From the IMG/VR virus record IMGVR_UViG_3300020478_000023, positions 1-38,445 of that record: 38,445 bases of DNA; one strand, 5' to 3'. The position numbers and the translations under genes were made by a program. The DNA comes from a virus. The notes beneath the pieces are model-generated. The model saw nothing but the letters and a program-made list of their open reading frames with translations. It was not told the DNA's origin and made no database searches. Shown piece after piece: positions 2,067-29,228 of the stretch. Each line of letters starts with the position of its first letter. Position 1 is the stretch's first letter.

Positions 2067-4658
2067 CTATCTGTTAGTATTTAAATTCATACTCATTCTT
2101 TGATTTAATCTATCTTTATTTTTACTTACTTCTTGCTCTAAAATTGAAAGATCTTTACGATGATCTGCAAGTGTCCTAGTTGAATCAGTAACTCCTCTTG
2201 TTTCTATTACGGCATCCATAATATCTACAGGGATCTGTAGCTTTTGCGCAATTAACACTGCTCGTCTTACGGCTTTGGCTGCTCCCTCTGGCATATTTAC
2301 TAATGGAAACTGGTTTTTCCAATAGTCTCCCTGATCCATTTCATCTATAATTGCACTTCTAGCTGTAGTAGGATTTGATAATATTGCTTTGCGTAACGCC
2401 AGTTGTGATTCTACAACATTTGCTAATTCATAATTTAAAAAGTATTTAATTGAATGACCTCTATTTTTATGCCTCCCTTTTAACTCAGCAAGATAGGCAT
2501 CAATTTCATTAAATTCTAAAATAATTAAATCATTCTGAATATTCATCAGCTTCTTTTGTGCCGTATGATAAAACTTGATTTTTTCTTCTTGATCTTCATT
2601 AAACCCTCTACCAGTTTCTTCGATCATTTTATTTTCTAAAATTTGCAAAGGATTATAACCAGGACTTGCTTCTTTAATATTTGCAGGATTTAAATTAGCA
2701 GAAACATTACGCATTGTTGCAATATCAATAGTATGCTGCTCTTTTAATGCATTTAATAAAGCCTTTTCATTCTGATCTGTTCCTTCTACAAAACTTAAGT
2801 TCGATTTTTTACCTGAAATTTTCTTTGCTTTATCTAATACTTTCCCTAATGCAACAGTTGCTTCTGCCTCTGTTGAATAAGTCATTCTTAACATTGCACC
2901 TTGTACACTGTCTGGATCATGATAAATTTCAGTTATTTTCTCTCGACTTAACTGCCCTGGATATGTATCAAAATCGGTCCATTCTTCCATAAATGCTCTA
3001 GCACCTAAAGGAGTGTCTACTCTTCGCAACTGTGTTCCAAGATAATTTGCTTGTTCTATCTTTTTCTGGCTTGCATTATATTTTCTAACAATTTCAGTAA
3101 AATCTGTATCTTTAAGAAGAGTTTTCCCAATTCTGTTTTGCCCTTTAGTAACTATTTCTTTTTCGCCTGTTATCCACTCATATCCTGTATCACCATACTT
3201 CCATTCCCTTCGTCTTTCTTTTTTTACACTATCAGGTATAACTTTTTCTAGTTCTTCCAGAGACTTTAGTTTCCAATCTCCATTATTTTGTTCTGTAAAA
3301 TATTTTTCTATATTATGTGGATTATTTATAATGTCTGTTTCTATGCTTTTTACAATATCAACATGATCACTTACCTGATTTTGTTTAGCTTCAGCAGTAT
3401 TTAATTTTAATGCAATCCCCATCAATTTAGTGATAGCATTAGGATCTCCTCTAAAGCGAGCATCATTAAATGCCATATTTTTAACTTGATCAGTGGTTAA
3501 TGGTGTTCCTTTAGCATCCATATCATATAATTTCTCCATCATATCTTGTATTGCATACGGATCAGCTGTTGGAGGTTTAGACATCTTGACATGATATTTT
3601 TCTATATATGGATATGTAAAATCAGGATTAAGAATATAGTCTACTAATTCTTTTTCACCACTATATCCAGTAAATTCATTTTTATATCTATATTCACTTT
3701 TTTCAGCTTTGGAGATCGCAGTATGTGGATCCGCATGAAATTGGGATCTGAAATGCTGTTCTAAAACTCCACTCATTAATGCAGTATGTATAGATTCAAC
3801 ATCTTTCATACTAATAACATTTCTTGCCTTTGCATCAAATACTCTGTCAGAAAAACGATTTAATATCTGGTCAATCTTTCTTTTTGCATCATCTGTTAAT
3901 CCTCCTTCTTGCCCCAGATCTTCTGGTTTAGCTTCTGTTTTTAATAGGCCACCTAAATTACCTAACCTTCCTTTGGATAGTTGATACCTCATATAGCTAT
4001 CATATGCTCTACCTGGTCCTTCTCCTCCTTGTCCTTCAAAGTTTTTTACATAATCTTTTGGCTCTACGGCAACAATAATATTTTTTTTATCATTAAGAAT
4101 ATCTTGAACTTGTCCTTGTATATCTAATGCTTGTTTATTTAAGCTCATCATTGTGTGTTCATTAGACAACTTAGACATTTGCCTCATTATTAATTCAGTT
4201 GCCTGTCCCTTTGCTTTTCTGTAATGATCTTTTACTTGTTTCCTAAATTTAGGTTGGAGTTGTTCGTATCCTTCGTATTCAGTAATATCTTTAAGGTTAA
4301 ATCCTTCTATTTGTCCATTTTCAAAATCTTTCAGTACTTCTTCAGGTCTTATCTCGGAACCTTTTCTTTTTGGCAATTCATTATCAATATATTCAATAGT
4401 CTTTAATAAATCGGTATTTGTTCTATCGACAAATTCATCTGCTAATTCCTGATCTGCCTGGTCAGTAATCATTTTACTTGCCTTAACAAGAACTTGACTT
4501 GTAAATCCTTGTGAGGCTTCCCAAATTTTTGCTTCTCCTATCTTTTCTCCACCAGCACCTTCAAATGGGTTCCTGGTTTCCAGCTGTACAGCTTTTCTGT
4601 CTAATACAGGGGATGCTTTAGCTTTACTTGCATAAGAAGAAGTTTGTAACTCAGCCAT
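2067..4658 (-). CDS. Internal virion protein-like, long helical (863 aa)
   Basis: A long hydrophilic protein, mostly charged helix with many K/E/Q/N and no cysteine-rich, signal or transmembrane region. Stretches such as residues 60-190 and 680-863 look like coiled coils. In T7-like phages the gene after the tail tube and the small gp14-like core protein encodes a large helical core protein (gp15 position) that is ejected into the cell. Order, size and composition fit that role here, but I see no diagnostic motif. It follows the 197-aa core protein gene by only 4 nt. Confidence 0.65.
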   Translation of the reverse strand: MAELQTSSYASKAKASPVLDRKAVQLETRNPFEGAGGEKIGEAKIWEASQGFTSQVLVKASKMITDQADQELADEFVDRTNTDLLKTIEYIDNELPKRKGSEIRPEEVLKDFENGQIEGFNLKDITEYEGYEQLQPKFRKQVKDHYRKAKGQATELIMRQMSKLSNEHTMMSLNKQALDIQGQVQDILNDKKNIIVAVEPKDYVKNFEGQGGEGPGRAYDSYMRYQLSKGRLGNLGGLLKTEAKPEDLGQEGGLTDDAKRKIDQILNRFSDRVFDAKARNVISMKDVESIHTALMSGVLEQHFRSQFHADPHTAISKAEKSEYRYKNEFTGYSGEKELVDYILNPDFTYPYIEKYHVKMSKPPTADPYAIQDMMEKLYDMDAKGTPLTTDQVKNMAFNDARFRGDPNAITKLMGIALKLNTAEAKQNQVSDHVDIVKSIETDIINNPHNIEKYFTEQNNGDWKLKSLEELEKVIPDSVKKERRREWKYGDTGYEWITGEKEIVTKGQNRIGKTLLKDTDFTEIVRKYNASQKKIEQANYLGTQLRRVDTPLGARAFMEEWTDFDTYPGQLSREKITEIYHDPDSVQGAMLRMTYSTEAEATVALGKVLDKAKKISGKKSNLSFVEGTDQNEKALLNALKEQHTIDIATMRNVSANLNPANIKEASPGYNPLQILENKMIEETGRGFNEDQEEKIKFYHTAQKKLMNIQNDLIILEFNEIDAYLAELKGRHKNRGHSIKYFLNYELANVVESQLALRKAILSNPTTARSAIIDEMDQGDYWKNQFPLVNMPEGAAKAVRRAVLIAQKLQIPVDIMDAVIETRGVTDSTRTLADHRKDLSILEQEVSKNKDRLNQRMSMNLNTNR

Positions 4659-4662
4659 TTAT

Positions 4663-5256
4663 TTAACCCAATTTAAATGATTCAGTATTAAATTGACCTC
4701 CAGATCCAATATATGCAGATCCTCCACTTGTAAATGCTCCTATCATACCAGCAAAGAATGCTGAATCTGCACCAGATCTTGCCATATTTGCTGCTCTTCG
4801 TAATTGACTAACTCTCATCTTTAATTTCCAGTTCTCCATTTTATTGACTGAAGCAGCATTTTGTTGGATATTTGTTATTTGTTCATCAGTTTTCTGCATC
4901 AGGCTCAATTGGGTACTTGCATTTTGTATATGTTGATTAATTATCATTTCATTAGTTGTTCCTGCACCTAAAGCAACCCCACTTCCTCCACCTTCTGCTC
5001 TCATATTTTCTACTGTTTTCAATCCACTTAAACCCATAATACCAGCTTCTTCCATACCACGAGCCATAGTTTGATAAGCCAGCATCGTAGTACGCTTGTT
5101 TCTTTCTTGGGTATTAAAATGATGTGTAAGAATAGCTTCATCTGCAACCATATCATATTCATCAGCTTTCATGCCCATTCCTTCTTTTTGTGCCTGGGCA
5201 CCCATATATCCTTGAAACATAGATAATAAAGCTATTCCTGCTGCTGCGTAACTCAC
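4663..5256 (-). CDS. Small internal virion (core) protein, gp14-like (197 aa)
   Basis: Starts with GTG at 5256, overlapping the stop of the tail tube B gene (GTGA), behind a strong AGGAGG site three to four bases upstream. The N-terminus is a hydrophobic Ala/Gly segment (YAAAGIALLSMFQGYMGAQAQ, about 3-23), followed by a Gln/Asn/Met-rich helical region and a second Gly/Ala hydrophobic patch (about 165-185, FFAGMIGAFTSGGSAYIG). This pattern, a hydrophobic Ala/Gly N-terminus with alpha-helical polar middle, is typical of the T7 gp14-type core protein family that forms part of the ejection channel. Position directly after tail tube B supports this. Confidence 0.7.
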   Translation of the reverse strand: MSYAAAGIALLSMFQGYMGAQAQKEGMGMKADEYDMVADEAILTHHFNTQERNKRTTMLAYQTMARGMEEAGIMGLSGLKTVENMRAEGGGSGVALGAGTTNEMIINQHIQNASTQLSLMQKTDEQITNIQQNAASVNKMENWKLKMRVSQLRRAANMARSGADSAFFAGMIGAFTSGGSAYIGSGGQFNTESFKLG

Positions 5257-22954: not shown

Positions 22955-23011
22955 TAGGGGGAGAGGACATTCATATAGGAGGCCAATCACGTTTTGTGGG
23001 GGGCGGGGGGT
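22955..23011 (+). other. G-tract cluster
   Basis: Plus strand carries AGGGGGAGAGG at about 22956-22966, AGGAGG at 22978-22983 and GTGGGGGGCGGGGGG ending near 23010; a shorter GTGGGGGCGG-like tract lies at about 22779-22788. Such runs are rare in this AT-rich sequence. They could form G-quadruplex DNA or RNA, or mark a packaging site near the terminase genes. There is no direct evidence for either. Confidence 0.35.
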
Positions 23012-23066
23012 CTTACAAGCTGATGGGGCAAAGGCATTAGGTACAAAATACACACCGCTAAAAGCA

Positions 23067-23095
23067 TTGCACACGTCTGATGTGGATACTATAGA
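23067..23095 (+). promoter_or_regulatory. Rightward (early operon) sigma70-type promoter
   Basis: TTGCAC (23067-23072), 17-nt spacer, TATAGA (23090-23095). Four of six matches at each element with ideal spacing. A start near 23102 would produce a leader of about 290 nt before the 217-aa gene. The -10 lies inside an imperfect palindrome (23087-23124). Confidence 0.5.
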
Positions 23096-23124
23096 CTACT
23101 TATCTGTTAAGTAATCTATCAGTA
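23087..23124 (+). promoter_or_regulatory. Imperfect palindrome / hairpin over the early -10
   Basis: Left arm TACTATAGACTACTT (23087-23101) and right arm AAGTAATCTATCAGTA (23109-23124) pair over 14 bp with one C/A mismatch and one bulged C; the loop is ATCTGTT. The -10 element is in the left arm. As DNA it could be an operator. As RNA it would need a start upstream of it. A second inverted repeat, CAGTAC/GTACTG (23120-23125 and 23143-23148), overlaps its end and could form an alternative fold. Confidence 0.45.
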
Positions 23125-23394
23125 CAAAGTAACACTCAGATAGTACTGTATATATATTAGTATAAGCATAGACACATGTATATAAAGATACTAGGTATAT
23201 ACTTATATATTATAATATAGAAATAATCAAGTGCATTCGTATGGTCTTCTAAGCTACTCCTGTTCTTCTTATCTTTTCCTTTTAATGTAATATATGTAGT
23301 TTGCTCGCTCCGCTCGAGTATGTTGCATATTTCGAGGTACCAGGAATTCATTCTGGTTGCCTAACTTTAGTAAACCTTCCATATGGAGAACATC

Positions 23395-24048
23395 ATGGAA
23401 AACTTAATGCAAGTTGACACAAGTAAACTAAACAAAGCTGAACTGCTCGAGTACTGTAATTCATTAAAAGCAGGTTTAAGCAATATGGCTCAGCAAGGCA
23501 CTAAGCCACTCAAGTACACAAACTGTCGTTCAGTCACATTTCAAGCGAATCAAGCTGAAATGCCATCTGAGGATGCACCAGAGATTATGGAGCAACTTCG
23601 GAACCTGAACGCCATTAAGCAGTATGCTCAACTTGTAGAAGAATGGAAATCTGCGAAAGTACAGGTTACAGACCGTTGGGGCAATGTACGCAATGTAAAG
23701 CGTGTTCGCACCTACGAGGAAATTGATATCCTTGAAACAGAACAGGAGTTGAAAGCACGTCTGGAAACTGCCGTAGCGACCAGAGATCCAAAGCATCCAA
23801 AATACGAAAAAGATGCAGCACCTGGTCAAGGTTGTGGCACTTCTCACAAGATTTACCATTTAAACGAGAGTCTTGACCAATTCAAGCCTGATGATAAACA
23901 TTCAGGATTCAAGGCTCCAACTTGTTTCGGTACAAATGTTCAACAAATACCTCACGAGCAATATGAGGAGTTGATCCAACGCAACCCTGAGAGCAAAAAG
24001 CAGAGAATGCATGCTCACATAGTTATGCAAGAAGAAAAAGTAGCATAA
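23395..24048 (+). CDS. Unknown first early protein (217 aa)
   Basis: The start at 23395 is chosen because GGAGA lies six bases upstream (23385-23389); an in-frame ATG at 23383 has no such site. The same GGAGAACATCATG context is used by the gene at 24424. The product is soluble and polar. Residues 1-30 form a short leucine-rich helix, the middle has a possible beta hairpin (VTDRWGNVRNVKRVRTYEEID) followed by a charged helix, and the C-terminus is rich in His/Pro/Gln with two Cys (GQGCGTS, APTCFG). Not recognised. As first gene of the early operon it may act in host takeover, but this is inference from position. Confidence 0.75.
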   Translation: MENLMQVDTSKLNKAELLEYCNSLKAGLSNMAQQGTKPLKYTNCRSVTFQANQAEMPSEDAPEIMEQLRNLNAIKQYAQLVEEWKSAKVQVTDRWGNVRNVKRVRTYEEIDILETEQELKARLETAVATRDPKHPKYEKDAAPGQGCGTSHKIYHLNESLDQFKPDDKHSGFKAPTCFGTNVQQIPHEQYEELIQRNPESKKQRMHAHIVMQEEKVA

Positions 24049-24069
24049 CACGCTAGGTTGCATCACACA

Positions 24070-24098
24070 GGGGGCATTGCTCAGTCGGCAGTGCCTCC
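24070..24098 (+). other. 11-bp hairpin after the first early gene
   Basis: GGGGGCATTGC (24070-24080) pairs with GCAGTGCCTCC (24088-24098), with two G-T wobbles, around a TCAGTCG loop. It lies 21 nt after the stop codon and is not followed by a T-run, so it is not a standard terminator. The loop side (GCTCAGTCGGCA) resembles a tRNA D-arm, but no anticodon or T-arm follows. It may be a processing or stability stem. A weak CGCTA/TAGCG pairing could close a wider domain around it. Confidence 0.4.
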
Positions 24099-24156
24099 TT
24101 CGCTCAAAGCACTTAAACGGCTTAGCGAACTTTAGTTAACCCTAACGAGAATCATC

Positions 24157-24267
24157 ATGTATGTGGAATATAACGAAAACGGAACAGTCTCATGGTTTGA
24201 CTCAGACGAATCGGAACCAGAAGAATTTGACCTCGAACCAGAACAGGAACTCGACTTCGGAAGTTGA
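24157..24267 (+). CDS. Tiny acidic protein (36 aa)
   Basis: Starts with ATG at 24157 behind ACGAGAATCATC. The 36-residue product is very acidic, with about 13 Asp/Glu (DSDESEPEEFDLEPEQELDF). Codon choice in this frame (GAA, GAC, CTC, TTC) looks coding, while the overlapping frame over the same bases looks less so. It ends at TGA (24265-24267) followed by C. A +1 shift at that stop would continue into the membrane segment encoded downstream. It could alternatively be a free acidic peptide. Confidence 0.5.
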   Translation: MYVEYNENGTVSWFDSDESEPEEFDLEPEQELDFGS

Positions 24268-24427
24268 CGATCACCTGTTTAAACATAAAGGTAAATACGG
24301 ATTAGTTTTAGCATGTCTGTTATGGTTATGTACACCATTAATTGCCATGCTTGTCGTGTTTGGATTTGGTTATTTTACGAAATCAAATGCAGACAAAATC
24401 AGAAACAATAAAAGGAGAACATCATGA
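24161..24427 (+). CDS. Small membrane protein with uncertain start (up to 88 aa)
   Basis: The second half is clearly protein-like: a basic segment (KHKGKYG), one or two hydrophobic helices (LVLACLLWLCTPLIAMLVVFGFGYF, about residues 48-72) and a basic tail (KIRNNKRR). The first half, if started at 24161, is a Gln/Asn/Thr-rich string read out of frame with the acidic 36-aa gene and is doubtful. No ATG or GTG with a ribosome site exists between 24267 and the helix. Real expression may therefore need a +1 shift from the acidic gene, or start at 24161. It ends ATGA-coupled to the next gene. Confidence 0.5.
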   Translation: MWNITKTEQSHGLTQTNRNQKNLTSNQNRNSTSEVDDHLFKHKGKYGLVLACLLWLCTPLIAMLVVFGFGYFTKSNADKIRNNKRRTS

Positions 24428-24618
24428 AAGACTTAACAGTTGAAGAAATTAACAGTAACATTGCAAACAAGACAAAACCAGTAATAAACACAATCCAGCA
24501 ATCACCAAATGTAATAACAGAATTACTGAAGAAATACAGTAAGAAAGTTATGAATTTCATTTGGAGAATAATCTTGATGCCATTCATGCCAGTAGTAAAT
24601 GCATGGAGGAAATCATGA
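24424..24618 (+). CDS. Small amphipathic or membrane-associated protein (64 aa)
   Basis: Good ribosome site (AAAAGGAGAACATC) before ATG 24424, which overlaps the preceding stop. The N-terminal half is a charged helix; residues 38-60 (KYSKKVMNFIWRIILMPFMPVVNAW) form a hydrophobic, Lys/Arg-flanked segment that could lie in or on the membrane. It is next to another small membrane gene on each side, so this cluster probably acts at the cell envelope during early infection. Not recognised. Confidence 0.6.
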   Translation: MKDLTVEEINSNIANKTKPVINTIQQSPNVITELLKKYSKKVMNFIWRIILMPFMPVVNAWRKS

Positions 24619-24698
24619 ATGCAAACAGATTTGCATGGATCGTATTAGTAACATGGACGTTAGTGGGTTCACATCTGTTAATGTACAATTACTGGTAA
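24615..24698 (+). CDS. Tiny single-span membrane peptide (27 aa)
   Basis: ATG at 24615 overlaps the stop of the 64-aa gene (ATGA) with GGAGGA five bases upstream (24605-24610). The product is essentially one transmembrane helix (FAWIVLVTWTLVGSHLLMY) with a short charged N-terminus. It is immediately followed by the first structured RNA element. Small toxins and envelope modulators of phages look like this, but function is unknown. Confidence 0.5.
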   Translation: MNANRFAWIVLVTWTLVGSHLLMYNYW

Positions 24699-24705
24699 AC
24701 TAAAC

Positions 24706-24773
24706 ATGTGCTGGTGAGGGGCACGACGGTGCGATGGTGGTGGAGGCTCGAGTATCAGCAATAGCCAGCACAT
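24706..24773 (+). ncRNA. Structured RNA element, copy A
   Basis: ATGTGCTGG (24706-24714) pairs perfectly with CCAGCACAT (24765-24773). Inside, directly after the 5' arm, is TGAGG, then a small hairpin GCAC-GACG-GTGC (24721-24732), then GTGGTGGAGG (24737-24746) and finally ATAG before the 3' arm. It shares TGG-TGAGG ... GAGG ... TAG-CCA with two other elements, whose closing stems have different sequences. It lies between the 27-aa gene and the 85-aa gene, 24 nt before the latter start. The coding frame that crosses it has no ribosome site. Confidence 0.55.
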
Positions 24774-24796
24774 TAACAAACAACAGAGAAGTTAAC

Positions 24797-25054
24797 ATGA
24801 ATGCAGAATTAAAAAATAATAGGCAAAACGAAATAGATGAAATGCTAACTGATACAGGCAAAAAGGAAATGGCAATTCAACATGAATACGAAGATAAAGT
24901 ATCAAATGCAATAAGTACTGTATGGAACAGTGCAATAAACTTAGAAGCACATGGATTCATAGATTATGATGCAACTTACTTAGTTTTTGCACTAGAAAAA
25001 TTCAAAAAAGAATTTGAATACGCAAATGAAAGAGACAGAAAACGTTGGGAATAG
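24797..25054 (+). CDS. Unknown early protein (85 aa)
   Basis: Start at 24797 is preferred over an in-frame GTG or ATG upstream because the upstream bases form the structured element and because the leader AGAGAAGTTAACATG resembles those of other genes here. The product is charged and helical (EIDEMLTDTGKKEMAIQHEYEDK), with an aromatic-rich C-terminal helix (YLVFALEKFKKEFEYANERDRKRWE). No membrane segment. Not recognised. Confidence 0.65.
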   Translation: MNAELKNNRQNEIDEMLTDTGKKEMAIQHEYEDKVSNAISTVWNSAINLEAHGFIDYDATYLVFALEKFKKEFEYANERDRKRWE

Positions 25055-25061
25055 CAATTAA

Positions 25062-25140
25062 TAATGTAACAAGTGTTTGGTGAGGATGTTGGAATAGTGG
25101 TCGAGGAGCGTGCAGTGTAGCCAGACACTTGTTTACATTA
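25062..25140 (+). ncRNA. Structured RNA element, copy B
   Basis: The strongest copy. TAATGTA plus ACAAGTGTTTGG (25062-25080) pairs with CCAGACACTTGT plus T-bulge and TACATTA (25121-25140), giving 19 bp with one G-T wobble and one bulge. After the 5' arm comes TGAGG (25081-25085), later AGTGGTCGAGG (25096-25106), then GTGTAG before the 3' arm. The closing stem shares only the inner TGG/CCA with copies A and C; elsewhere pairs are changed on both sides. It ends 70 nt before the start of the 73-aa gene. A further hairpin, CTGTT-TAGCG-AACAG, lies at about 25157-25171. Confidence 0.6.
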
Positions 25141-25210
25141 ATTTTTTTACAACACAAACTGTTTAGCGAACAGCAAACAGACTTTCAAAATATTTTGTCA
25201 TGGAGCGACT

Positions 25211-25432
25211 ATGGAAGAAATTACAAACATTGAAACATATAAAAACATGAAAGAAGACGCAAGGAAAAAGAAACTCATTGAATATGCAAACAATTTAGTA
25301 CTCGAATCAATAGAATTACATATCCAGAAATGCATTTCAGAAGGAGACTTAGAAAAAGGTCAACGCCTGGAAGACATCCACGAAGTATTAAAAAGCAAAC
25401 ATGAAACAATAGGAGAAACCAATGAGCAATGA
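25211..25432 (+). CDS. Unknown early protein (73 aa)
   Basis: Start behind GGAGCGACT. A charged, helical protein rich in Lys/Glu (YKNMKEDARKKKLIEYANNL), with a single Cys. It is followed by an 11-nt overlap with the 91-aa gene, which has its own ribosome site. Not recognised. Confidence 0.65.
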   Translation: MEEITNIETYKNMKEDARKKKLIEYANNLVLESIELHIQKCISEGDLEKGQRLEDIHEVLKSKHETIGETNEQ

Positions 25433-25697
25433 TCAAGAAAATATGAAGCGAATACAAGAAGAATCAAGTGTTAACACACTGGTACATCAGTTATGTTCAG
25501 AGATGTTAACAATGAAAAAAGAGTTAAGTGAACTAAAAGAAGAAATCAAAATGGCAGTTTTAGAAAGAAAGGAGGTGGTCGACGATATTTACAGATTTGT
25601 AGATAGTAGAACAAGAAAGATAACAACATCTGAAGAAGCAGTTGCTCGTTTAGGTAAAGCATTAACTGGAGATAACCATGAAAAGGAAAGAGAATAA
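25422..25697 (+). CDS. Unknown coiled-coil protein (91 aa)
   Basis: Start behind AGGAGAAACC, overlapping the 73-aa gene. Residues 20-60 form a Leu/Lys/Glu coiled coil (EMLTMKKELSELKEEIKMAVLERK), followed by a short charged C-terminus. It overlaps the following zinc-binding gene by 20 nt. Not recognised; small coiled-coil early proteins often bind host enzymes, but no specific claim can be made. Confidence 0.65.
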   Translation: MSNDQENMKRIQEESSVNTLVHQLCSEMLTMKKELSELKEEIKMAVLERKEVVDDIYRFVDSRTRKITTSEEAVARLGKALTGDNHEKERE

Positions 25698-25848
25698 GCA
25701 TTGTCCCATGTGTGGGGCACAGTTGGATCTGCAACCAGGTCCGCTAATGAGGGAAGGTGGCAAAACATTCTGTAATGCAACTCATGCATATGAATACAGA
25801 ATAAGCCAGGAACCAGTAAGTAAACAGAAACAAATGGGAGGTATATAA
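25678..25848 (+). CDS. Small zinc-finger-like protein (56 aa)
   Basis: ATG 25678 has GGAGATAACC upstream and lies inside the end of the 91-aa gene. The product carries CPMCG (Cys9, Cys12) and FCNATH (Cys32, His36), the spacing of a small Cys2-CysHis zinc-binding module. The rest is basic and polar. The stop overlaps the next start (TAATG at 25846-25850). Small zinc-ribbon proteins of this size are frequent in phage early operons. Function unknown. Confidence 0.65.
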   Translation: MKRKENKHCPMCGAQLDLQPGPLMREGGKTFCNATHAYEYRISQEPVSKQKQMGGI

Positions 25849-27035
25849 TGTTACAACCAGCACCAGAAGAAGCAGTATATTTTAATGATTATGCTGCACT
25901 AAAAGACTACGTTGAAGATGACAGTTCACAAACTAGGGTACATAGATTGAATTACACATATGGTGATACTTTCTATATGCACGATGACAACGTATTAGTA
26001 CATAAACCACATCATTCACACTCATTCAATAACTATAAATACACTGAGAGTGCAATAAAGAAACTGTTCACCATACTAGGTTGTGGATCTCTATACGCAA
26101 GTATGAACCTAGATTCCAGCTTCGGCATGGCAACAGCATACATTAACAACATACTTTCGCCTAAGAATCCATATGTTAAAAGACTCAATGGATATAATTT
26201 CATTGAAACAGGGGGAACAATCATAGGATTTTTTAGTCAGAAATACTCATATGTTAAAAACTCTGAAGTTCTCAATGAGGCATGTGATTTAATGCAACTT
26301 GATAAAGGAAATTCATTCTCATTTGCAGAAGCCTCAGTTGTTAACACAAAGATGAAATTACGTGTTAAACAGGATTATACAGGCTTCAAACTGCGTGATG
26401 ATAAGGAAGACATCTGCACATTAGGTATCGAGCTTCGTAATAGCCACTTAGGAGATACTGCGCTTAGTACAAGGATTTACACGTATCGTCTTATTTGTTC
26501 AAATGGTGCTATAGCGAACAGCAATAAAATGAAGAATCGCCTGGTACACAGAGGTGATGCAGGAAACAGAATTGGCGAGATACTGCATGATGTTAACAGA
26601 GGATATGAAGAAGTTAAGTATCGCATTGAGAAGCTGCTCACGATACCATACAACTTCCTCAGTGATGAAGGATTAGAACCTTCAACATCAAAGAGTATGC
26701 TTGAGATGAATGCACCTGTAAGGGTGCTACCCGAGATGACTGAGAGTAATTGGTATAGCCCAAACAAGAAGTTTAAAGATGATTATACCAAGTCTCATCA
26801 ACTCAAAGCATCTGCATATAATTTGGATCAAAGCCATGTTAGATATCCAGGTGTATGTTCAAATATATTCGGATCAGTATATAGAAAGGGTGAACGCAGT
26901 TTGTATGATTGGACCGAAATCTTTACAGAACGTGCTAATCACGAATCCTATTCTATCAAAGAGAAGGAAGAAATACAAGAAAATGTTGGTGATTTAGTGG
27001 AATATTTAGCTAAGAAATCAACATTATTAAATTAG
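25848..27035 (+). CDS. DUF932-like protein (395 aa)
   Basis: The arrangement of an N-terminal region with DDNVLVHKPHHSH, a middle of alternating beta strands, and TYRLICSNGAI (about 218-228) followed by a long helix with basic residues matches my memory of DUF932 phage/plasmid proteins, in which an R(L/V)VCSNG-type motif is the best conserved part. Their role is not settled; a link to DNA recombination or replication has been suggested by gene context. Here it lies some 1.2 kb before the recombination genes. Assignment is by pattern only. Confidence 0.55.
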   Translation: MLQPAPEEAVYFNDYAALKDYVEDDSSQTRVHRLNYTYGDTFYMHDDNVLVHKPHHSHSFNNYKYTESAIKKLFTILGCGSLYASMNLDSSFGMATAYINNILSPKNPYVKRLNGYNFIETGGTIIGFFSQKYSYVKNSEVLNEACDLMQLDKGNSFSFAEASVVNTKMKLRVKQDYTGFKLRDDKEDICTLGIELRNSHLGDTALSTRIYTYRLICSNGAIANSNKMKNRLVHRGDAGNRIGEILHDVNRGYEEVKYRIEKLLTIPYNFLSDEGLEPSTSKSMLEMNAPVRVLPEMTESNWYSPNKKFKDDYTKSHQLKASAYNLDQSHVRYPGVCSNIFGSVYRKGERSLYDWTEIFTERANHESYSIKEKEEIQENVGDLVEYLAKKSTLLN

Positions 27036-27334
27036 GCACAGCTGAGTCGTGCCTTGAGGCAACATGGAAGTTGCATAGGAGGTATATCTATTGAAATAGA
27101 GGTGGTTGGAGGTGCTTGGGTAGCTGGCAAGAAGTGCCATACAGATTCGTGAGGTCTGAATCCTTAATTTGGATTCGTAAAAGTGGGTGAACACTTTGGC
27201 TTTACCTGTATAAAAAGTGAGTCCGAGCAAGGAGGTTAGCTGGATAGATATGCTTCTAGGGTTAGGGGTGGGTGCGCACAAAACAATCGGGATAGTACTA
27301 ATAGGATTTTTTGTACGTCTAAGGCTTAGACGTA
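27034..27334 (+). ncRNA. Multi-hairpin intergenic region (about 300 nt), possible structured RNA
   Basis: From the stop codon of the DUF932-like gene on, there are six clear hairpins: AGGCAC/GTGCCT (27034-27054), GCAAC-ATGGAA-GTTGC (27059-27074), TCTAT-TGAA-ATAGA (27087-27100), GAATCC/GGATTC (27158-27176), AAAGTG/CACTTT (27180-27197) and TACGTCTAA-GGC-TTAGACGTA (27314-27334). Between them are GGAGG-rich stretches and two TAGCTGG words. No frame has good composition with a ribosome site. Together with copy C, this leaves 423 nt without a gene in an otherwise dense operon. The fold is my reading by eye. Confidence 0.5.
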
Positions 27335-27339
27335 TTGAC

Positions 27340-27425
27340 TAATAAGCTGGTGAGGAGAGATAATATGCGGATGCTACTTTGTAGCGTGGAGGGGCAACGA
27401 GCAAAGCTGTGTAGCCAGTTTATTA
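27340..27425 (+). ncRNA. Structured RNA element, copy C
   Basis: TAATAAGCTGG (27340-27350) pairs with CCAGTTTATTA (27415-27425), 11 bp with one G-T wobble. TGAGG follows the 5' arm (27351-27355). An internal hairpin ATGCTAC-TTT-GTAGCGT (27371-27387) precedes GTGGAGG, and TGTGTAG precedes the 3' arm. The core words are those of copies A and B; the closing stem is different but still paired. The next gene starts 34 nt downstream with a strong ribosome site. Confidence 0.58.
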
Positions 27426-27458
27426 CTATATATAAACAATTAAACAAAAAAGGAGAAT

Positions 27459-27887
27459 ATGGGTTTAGATATGTTTGCATACAGTGTGGATGAAGAAATG
27501 CATCCATTATCGCCAGAAGGAGAAAACGAACTAGATGAAGCCAGTTATTCATGGCGTAAACATACAAAGTTACATCAATGGATGAATGACTATTACCATG
27601 AAGAAGCAGAAAAAGGTAACATTACTGTCTCTGATGAACATAAAGAACAAATGTGGGCAGGAGAATTTAACTGTATCCCACTATATTTGCCTATAGACAA
27701 GTTATTTGAATTAAAATATCTCATTGAAGACGATGATCTCCCAGAAAGTGATGGAGGATTCTTCTGGGGTCAGGATTTTCAGGATGAAACAGCTGCGGAT
27801 TACAAAACGCAAGACCTGGAATTCTGTGAATGGGCAATTAAAGAAAGCGACAATGGTAATTTTGTATACTACAGTTGTTGGTTTTAG
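27459..27887 (+). CDS. Conserved phage protein of MGLDM type (142 aa)
   Basis: Starts at ATG 27459 behind AAAAAAGGAGAAT. The opening MGLDMFAYSV, the WRKHTKLHQWM segment (32-42) and the acidic LPESDGGFFWG (about 94-104) match a widespread family of small phage proteins that begin MGLDMYL and contain an (Y)WRKANQIHxW motif. The family has no established function that I know of. It is soluble and acidic. It lies between the RNA-rich gap and the HTH gene promoter. Confidence 0.7.
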   Translation: MGLDMFAYSVDEEMHPLSPEGENELDEASYSWRKHTKLHQWMNDYYHEEAEKGNITVSDEHKEQMWAGEFNCIPLYLPIDKLFELKYLIEDDDLPESDGGFFWGQDFQDETAADYKTQDLEFCEWAIKESDNGNFVYYSCWF

Positions 27888-27954
27888 TAATGGTTGCGAT
27901 TCTTGCGATTTATAAAGGTGCTATACAAGTTACGATATTGGGCTTTGATGCATC

Positions 27955-27983
27955 TTGACACTATGTTGGTTGTTGTGTAAAGT
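27955..27983 (+). promoter_or_regulatory. Sigma70-type promoter of the HTH and recombination genes
   Basis: TTGACA (27955-27960, perfect), 17-nt spacer, TAAAGT (27978-27983, four of six). Expected start near 27990. It would drive the HTH gene, the exonuclease and everything downstream. The spacer and -10 lie inside the large palindrome 27961-28007. Confidence 0.55.
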
Positions 27984-28007
27984 TAAGATACATGACAACC
28001 AATATAG
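27961..28007 (+). promoter_or_regulatory. 19-bp imperfect palindrome overlapping promoter and ribosome site
   Basis: The left arm 27961-27979 (CTATGTTGGTTGTTGTGTA) and right arm 27989-28007 pair over all 19 positions with three G-T wobbles around a 9-nt loop (AAGTTAAGA). As DNA it is a near-palindrome covering the promoter spacer and -10, a natural operator for the HTH protein encoded next. As RNA in read-through transcripts from upstream it is a long hairpin ending at the first base of the ribosome site (AGGAG 28006-28010) and could hide it or be cut by RNase III. Confidence 0.55.
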
Positions 28008-28015
28008 GAGAATCT

Positions 28016-28201
28016 ATGGATATGAAAGAACAATGTGATGTATTCAACATCAAACTTACTGAAATCGCAGAAGACACTGGTTTCAGTTTACCATATGTAG
28101 GCATGGTTATTAGTGGGAAACGTAATAATGCCCAGATAATATCAGCTGTACATATGGCTATTGAAATGAAGAAAAAGCAATTAAGAAACATTATTAACTA
28201 A
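28016..28201 (+). CDS. Small HTH DNA-binding protein, Cro-like (61 aa)
   Basis: Start 28016 has AGGAG five bases upstream; an in-frame ATG at 27992 lies inside the palindrome without such a site. The core LTEIAEDTGFSLPYVGMVISGKRNN (about 14-38) has the form of an XRE/Cro-type helix-turn-helix with the usual AxxTGxSxxYVxxxxxGKR pattern. At 61 residues it is a single-domain regulator. It probably binds the overlapping palindrome and controls its own operon. Confidence 0.7.
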   Translation: MDMKEQCDVFNIKLTEIAEDTGFSLPYVGMVISGKRNNAQIISAVHMAIEMKKKQLRNIIN

Positions 28202-28208
28202 AGGAAAT

Positions 28209-29228
28209 ATGAAAGAAACAGTGATCTACACTAAAAAACAGTTCGATCCAAGTGATAATGAAGCAAGACGTAATGTAGTTGGAAGTTCAGATGCTCCAGT
28301 TATTACAAGGACAGCACCATTTCAGAATCAGATCCACAATACCTGGTTAGGTCTATGGCAGATCAAGACAGGGAAAGCAGATGCACCAGACTTAACAGGC
28401 AATGAAGCTGTTGAGTGGGGTATTGATTTAGAGGATACTGTGCGATTTAGAGCAAAAAAGCATCTTGGAGTCGAATTACGTAAGGCAAAAGAAACCTTTT
28501 ATCATAAGAAGTACCCATTTATATGCGCACATCCAGATTCCATTATTAAAGGAATTAAGGAAATAGGCGAAATTAAGTGTCCAGGTATGGGTACAATGAT
28601 GAAAATGGGAGAAAACCTGGAAAACTTTCTTGAATCATATAAAGCACAGGGTGTTCATCAGCTTCTAGTAATGGATAAGATGAAAGCTGTACAGTTTTAT
28701 GTACAATACCCTCAAAAACGCTTAAAAGTCTTCAGGATGGAAAGAGACGACAGAGTGATAGATAAGTACCTCCAACTCGTTTTAGCCTTCTGGGACATGG
28801 TTGAGAAAGATATTCAGCCAGAACCACAAACTGAAGTGGAAACTAATGCTGCATTTTTCAAACATAAAGAAGAATATATGCCTTTTGACAGTAAAATTGC
28901 TGAAAAGGTAAGAAAAGTTATGGATATTGAAATTGCAGAAGCACGTATGGCAGAAGAAAAGAAAGAATTGCGTACAGAAATTAAGAAAGCAATTGGATCC
29001 TATGGCGGTATGACCTGGGATCTCTCCGAAGATGACGTTCAGGTACAGCGTTATAAAAGACCCACCTTTAATGAGGACAGCTTCTTTGAGAAAGAAGATC
29101 CTGAAACCATACAATCATTTACTGTTCCAACAGTAGATAAAGCATTATTAAGGAAAGAAAACAGACCACTGTATGATAAACATGCAGATTTGAAGGAAAT
29201 AACTCGCTTGGTATTACCCAAGAAGTAA
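28209..29228 (+). CDS. YqaJ-type (lambda exonuclease-like) 5'-3' exonuclease (339 aa)
   Basis: Motifs in order: GSSDAP (25-30), EWGIDLE (69-75), CAHPDSI (106-112) and IGEIKCP (119-125), then QGVHQLLVM (about 147-155). D110, E121 and K123 fit the D...ExK metal and catalytic residues of the YqaJ/lambda exonuclease family. The enzyme resects dsDNA ends to yield 3' single strands for annealing. The annealing partner is the next gene but one gap away. Beyond residue 200 the C-terminus is helical and charged, longer than the minimal domain. Confidence 0.9.
   Translation: MKETVIYTKKQFDPSDNEARRNVVGSSDAPVITRTAPFQNQIHNTWLGLWQIKTGKADAPDLTGNEAVEWGIDLEDTVRFRAKKHLGVELRKAKETFYHKKYPFICAHPDSIIKGIKEIGEIKCPGMGTMMKMGENLENFLESYKAQGVHQLLVMDKMKAVQFYVQYPQKRLKVFRMERDDRVIDKYLQLVLAFWDMVEKDIQPEPQTEVETNAAFFKHKEEYMPFDSKIAEKVRKVMDIEIAEARMAEEKKELRTEIKKAIGSYGGMTWDLSEDDVQVQRYKRPTFNEDSFFEKEDPETIQSFTVPTVDKALLRKENRPLYDKHADLKEITRLVLPKK

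Follow-up and report, generated by a model that had tools for sequence, protein, structure and literature searches.

Copies of the RNA module in the window and in other phages

Three similar stretches between the early genes of a viral DNA raise the question of whether they belong to one RNA family and what such an RNA may do. The window, that is, the whole stretch of 38,445 nucleotides analyzed here (IMG/VR record IMGVR_UViG_3300020478_000023), probably comes from an uncultured marine phage. Its portal protein has at most about 31% identity to those of known phages among the matches listed, and neither the early region (blastn) nor the DUF932 protein (tblastn) matched GenBank phages. A preliminary description, made from the sequence alone, had placed three copies of a structured RNA at 24706-24773, 25062-25140, and 27340-27425, on the sense strand between early genes. 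All three are present there, and a sequence check bore out their strand and intergenic position. The pattern TGGTGAGG-N-GAGG-N-TAGCCA matched three times in the window and never in 100 dinucleotide shuffles. The copies, named C1 to C3, and their parts are as follows (P1, closing stem; P2 and P3, inner helices).

24706..24773, + strand: copy C1 (stem inspection; covariance model R1, 22.6 bits, E 0.0032, C1 being included in the model)
24706..24715, + strand: C1 P1 5' strand, partner 24764-24773 (stem count and P1 covariation)
24764..24773, + strand: C1 P1 3' strand (stem count and P1 covariation)
24716..24719, + strand: C1 conserved GAGG (word alignment)
24721..24732, + strand: C1 P2 hairpin GCAC/GUGC (MFE fold)
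24741..24746, + strand: C1 conserved UGGAGG (sequence reading)
25062..25140, + strand: copy C2, followed by AAUUUUUUU (model R1, 20.5 bits)
25068-25081/25120-25133, + strand: C2 14-pair core stem, longer if one bulged U is allowed
25082..25085, + strand: C2 GAGG (word alignment)
25103..25106, + strand: C2 second GAGG word (word alignment)
25115..25119, + strand: C2 GUGUA (word alignment)
27340..27425, + strand: copy C3, with orthologues in L130 and L157 that gained or lost P2 and P3 hairpins
27352..27355, + strand: C3 GAGG (word alignment)
27373..27385, + strand: C3 P2 hairpin GCUAC-UUU-GUAGC, missing from the orthologues L130 and L157b
27387..27392, + strand: C3 UGGAGG (word alignment)
27400..27408, + strand: C3 P3 AGC-AAA-GCU, with the loop enlarged in L130 and L157b
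27409..27413, + strand: C3 GUGUA (word alignment)

Model R1 describes P1 only, the loops having been removed from its input, which makes its E-values weak. The closing stems do pair as first proposed, over 10, 14, and 12 pairs when a U.G beside GAGG is included. The conserved words are there, with small changes to their exact form, the core being GAGG after a pairing base and (GUG)UA before a pairing base. C1, C2, and C3 end 24, 77, and 33 nt before the next ATG, the value for C2 being 70 nt if counted from 25140.

To collect relatives, searches were made with the DUF932-type protein, with a small helix-turn-helix protein, and with additional DNA patterns. In all, 22 further copies were found, giving 25 rows from 16 contigs, among which there are 24 different closing stems. 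The window, L085, and L158 hold three copies each; L134, L157, and L153 hold two each, with the L134a sequence occurring again in L153; and L124, L126, L128, L129, L130, L131, L133, L150, L152, and L154 hold one each, while L122, L125, L135, and L156 repeat some of the counted copies. The L128 copy deviates in having CAGG and one mismatch beside the core, and in L002/L127 the contig end cuts a copy so that just its 5' half is present. Most copies lie in the early regions of related uncultured phages. Two are found in different phages, one in a fragment with a T7-type terminase (L152/L173) and the other in a T7-like autographivirus fragment (L150), where it sits between endonuclease and primase in a gene set including T7-type RNA polymerase, endonuclease I, and primase/helicase. 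The three window copies belong to a new RNA family, whose members are small, modular, and structured and lie in phage gene clusters.

Both of the latter fragments contain other stem-loops. Beside the RNA copy of L150, at about 4415-4480 (- strand), is a long hairpin, ACCAGUAACUA/UAGUUACUGGU, whose loop measures about 46 nt. L173 has a repeated stem-loop, GAGAGCGUAAGAGCCACG ... GAGCAAAGUGCCUAAUAGCAAUGUUCACGCUAC, at 4640-4900 (- strand), and the RNA module lies in the loop of one repeat, where it replaces the host stem-loop's own inner hairpin, a reading limited by nearby masked Ns.

A loose pattern scan of viral contigs returned at least 119 stretches, and among the matches listed, the window aside, only L085 had, between genes, both the words and an extended stem. 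A stricter descriptor, which required a P1 of at least 8 pairs, either GAGG or CAGG, a G-rich word further inside, and GUA or AAUA, matched 28 times in 0.198 Mb of family contigs versus 6 times in 1.07 Mb of unrelated viral loci, a ratio that is indicative only since the family contigs were partly picked by descriptor-type matches. The same descriptor found no copies in 0.110 Mb of four partly covered records of pelagiphages and relatives. In 84,980 prokaryote genomes, a motif scan found 14 sites, which is about chance level, and only L162 and L163 among them had a P1 of at least 8 pairs in the stem scan.

Fold and covariation

The family core reads P1-N-GAGG-[variable P2]-(U)GGAGG-[P3]-(GUG)UA-N'-P1'. 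Each copy is a closed domain in which a sequence-variable P1 adjoins a conserved junction, with GAGG on one side and (GUG)UA on the other. P1 encloses a variable P2 arm, which is optional, then the conserved (U)GGAGG strand, and then P3, a variable hairpin that forms a third helix between GGAGG and GUGUA in most copies. The GA opposite UA beside P1 may, we presume, allow sheared G.A and trans U.A pairs in a loop-E-like arrangement.

Since a whole-copy MAFFT alignment misplaced GGAGG, P1 was counted on fixed-register trimmed rows and P3 on the group of copies with homologous interiors. Among 24 sequences, all 10 P1 pairs showed changes on both sides with pairing kept. Both sides were changed in 53 P1 cells in total, whereas shuffles gave 14.9 and slid controls no more than 18, and the covariation score was 0.709, compared with 0.235 in shuffles and at most 0.224 in slid controls. 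Because most copies were found by patterns or scans requiring part of P1, the percentage paired is biased upward, and the copies are also related to each other. The P1 differences between copies with homologous interiors and the changes in P3 carry less or none of this selection bias. L150 and L152, which have homologous interiors, differ by one double change in P1 (A-U against G-C), and L134b and L158c differ by three, including two G-C/A-U exchanges beside the core and one A-U to G-C. P1 of L157a differs from that of L128, which has a similar interior, by U-A/A-U and A-U/G-C. P3, which was never a selection criterion, shows two pairs with double changes (UCAC/GUGA versus CUAC/GUAG), possibly from one evolutionary event. 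Every P1 and P3 cell is paired in the homologous-interior group. The suggestion that closing stems with compensating changes mark a selected RNA fold is therefore supported by new homologues, through all 10 P1 pairs and independently through P3; homologues with compensatory changes were looked for and found.

Gain and loss of hairpins is confined to P2 and P3. In C3, L130, and L157b, a P2 hairpin was gained or lost and the P3 loop was enlarged while the flanks stayed constant, and L158c has a 7-bp hairpin inside its P3 loop. The mean MFE z score was -2.0, and P1 was present in 23 of the 25 minimum-energy folds. Several copies have a weak P2 or none, and the term three-way junction therefore suits only some members; C2 and L133 have at most a very weak P3.

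Relation to known RNA classes

The claim that no Rfam family has this core held for Rfam 15, in which the window copies matched no family at gathering score. A relaxed scan (E of 5 or below) of 23000-28500 gave a single match, a chance-level plastid model off the copies. The Rfam 15 scan of the other copies gave no matches, its sole match being a tRNA elsewhere in L173, and ARAGORN found no tRNA or tmRNA in the window. The titles and abstracts searched in the open-access literature contained no description of the module core. The hammerhead ribozyme (core CUGANGA plus GAAA, with a cleavage-site triplet) was rejected, since most copies have CUGGUGA, no GAAA is conserved, and no Rfam match was obtained. 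Like GOLLD and ROOL, the module is an unexplained structured RNA linked to bacteria and phages; however, it is about ten times smaller, occurs in several copies per genome, and is unrelated in sequence. The module can safely be called a new RNA family of a broad kind that is already known, phage-associated structured RNA.

Genomic context and neighboring noncoding elements

The copies lie on the sense strand of the surrounding genes, occur in tandem in places, and come and go at gene borders that stay fixed. Many are preceded by a DUF932-type gene, an assignment based on Pfam in the window and, in relatives with a weaker or no Pfam score, on position and alignment. The next gene varies: those 3' of copies after the DUF932-type gene encode a ParB-like, a helix-turn-helix, a short basic, or a 142-aa protein, as named by reading; none had a Pfam match. 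By sequence reading, P1 starts 6 to 13 nt past the upstream stop codon in C1, C2, L085b, L085c, and L131 and overlaps it in L133 and L150. In L133, the copy lies between an SSB-like ORF, with which the visible rightward operon ends, and a convergent gene. A run of at least four T's at the end of P1 was found in 13 of 24 copies versus 0.8 expected (0 of 2,000 draws); some of these T's pair within P1, and C1 has no U-tract. Promoter-like TTGACA or TTGATA was read 3' of the copy in L128, L130, L157b, and L158c.

Two hairpins precede C3 in the window, both outside the module, H1 being linked to it:

27034..27054, + strand: hairpin H1, AGGCAC-AGCUGAGUC-GUGCCU, over the DUF932 gene stop (covarying stem, 12 contigs)
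27059..27074, + strand: hairpin H2, GCAAC-AUGGAA-GUUGC, CsrA-site-like (sequence comparison)

The H1 loop UGAGU is invariant. H1 and H2 stand in tandem directly after the DUF932-type gene in the window, L002, L124, L126, L128, L129, L132, L134, L135, L157, and L158, and L130 has H1 only. A larger conserved noncoding element spans 27076-27310 in the window, 6280-6430 in L002, and 1695-1920 in L126, with variants in L128, L129, and L130. It has a closing stem, AUAUCUA/UAGAUAU, and a G-rich tail, GGGTTAGGGGTGGGTGCG, which could form a G-quadruplex and has exact matches in two other viral contigs. In addition, the palindromes TACGTCTAAG-G-CTTAGACGTA and (GG)GATAGTACTA.. were found at 27314-27334 and about 27281-27312 in the window and in L085, L129, L131, L157, and L158, the latter palindrome in either orientation in relatives. 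They are likely operator or promoter sites.

Possible functions of the module

The reading that we rank first, and hold tentatively, is a factor-responsive element at transcript 3' ends or between cistrons. The module would be a cis-acting element of the polycistronic mRNA, located where the upstream cistron ends, with P1 and the U-tract providing a 3' end that resembles a terminator or blocks nucleases. A protein or other factor would bind at the conserved junction and stabilize P1, and would thereby set how often transcription or decay stops at the module. The U-tract excess, the copies hugging stop codons, and the operon-end position in L133 point to action on the end of the upstream transcript and favor this reading over a riboswitch for the next gene, and the conserved junction suggests a recognition or catalytic role beyond that of a plain hairpin. 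Like intrinsic (Rho-independent) terminators, many copies have a stem followed by a U-tract after a stop codon. However, the lack of a U-tract in some copies, such as C1, and the loop of 38 to 111 nt, far larger than in ordinary intrinsic terminators and containing conserved words and helices of its own, argue against a terminator-like function. A terminator scan restricted to loops of 3 to 8 nt found no sense-strand site at the window copies.

Next come two alternatives that we rank equally and regard as unlikely. The closed domain might be released as a trans-acting small RNA or decoy that titrates a host RNA-binding protein, for example of the CsrA/Rsm type, through GGA words. Many copies contain GGAGG or a similar G-rich word, tandem copies occur, and the neighboring H2 matches the CsrA SELEX consensus RUACARGGAUGU at ACA, GGA, and GU (PMC7652899) and recurs as GCRAC-AUGGAW-GUUGC in 11 distinct contigs, each time after the DUF932-type gene. 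However, H2 has U where the SELEX consensus has R, and this single CsrA-consensus-like hairpin lies beside the module rather than within it. The words that the module conserves most strongly, GAGG at the junction and (GUG)UA, do not correspond to CsrA sites. The window shows no excess of the CsrA consensus (2 matches versus 1.01 expected), and a search for a phage-encoded CsrA found none. CsrB/RsmZ-type CsrA-binding RNAs resemble the module in their GGA words and in the consensus-like GGA hairpin nearby, but they consist of repeated hairpins, whereas the module keeps a defined junction with core words that are not GGA sites.

The other alternative is a riboswitch-like cis-regulator of the next gene, with a metabolite bound by the junction and P1 and the U-tract serving as the expression platform. 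Three-way-junction riboswitch aptamers, such as those for purines and c-di-GMP, have a P1 of variable sequence, conserved junction words, expandable arms, and tandem copies. The module shares all of these features, and its P1 adjoins U-tracts. Nevertheless, it has no sequence core in common with these aptamers and no Rfam match, its downstream genes are unrelated rather than constant, L133 has no visible same-strand gene downstream, and no alternative pairing platform was noticed by eye.

A self-cleaving or processing element is less probable again. It would be a small ribozyme of a new kind or a site for an endonuclease, and the polycistronic mRNA would be cut there between genes. The compact junction with its short conserved core, the location between cistrons, the tandem copies, and the occurrence inside another stem-loop element are consistent with it; no Rfam ribozyme matched, and a hammerhead-like CUGAUGAG is present only in L134b (with its L135 and L153 copies) and L158a, most copies reading CUGGUGAG. 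The intercistronic RNase III sites of T7 are likewise structured elements between phage cistrons, and one member of the module is in a T7-like phage, but those sites are long irregular duplexes, whereas the module is a stem of 7 to 14 bp around a purine-rich junction. That the copies are not functional RNA but repeated DNA or chance inverted repeats is highly improbable: in control viral contigs, similar sites do turn up by chance, at about 6 per Mb, but the greater density in the family contigs, the compensatory changes in P1 and P3, and the hairpin-sized insertions argue against it.

That a T7-like phage and another phage group both have members, and that the tandem copies are swappable, points to a transferable RNA function. 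It is conceivable, though we think it improbable, that the module is an autonomous RNA domain passed by phages between unrelated genomes and plugged into 3' UTRs and other structured RNAs, as a small ribozyme of a new class or as an RNA-controlled terminator using host components only. The module adds to the RNAs of uncultured phages a well-supported small family, absent from Rfam 15, with a short conserved core and many natural variants, and general regulatory modules beyond those annotated may be present in the RNA between phage cistrons.
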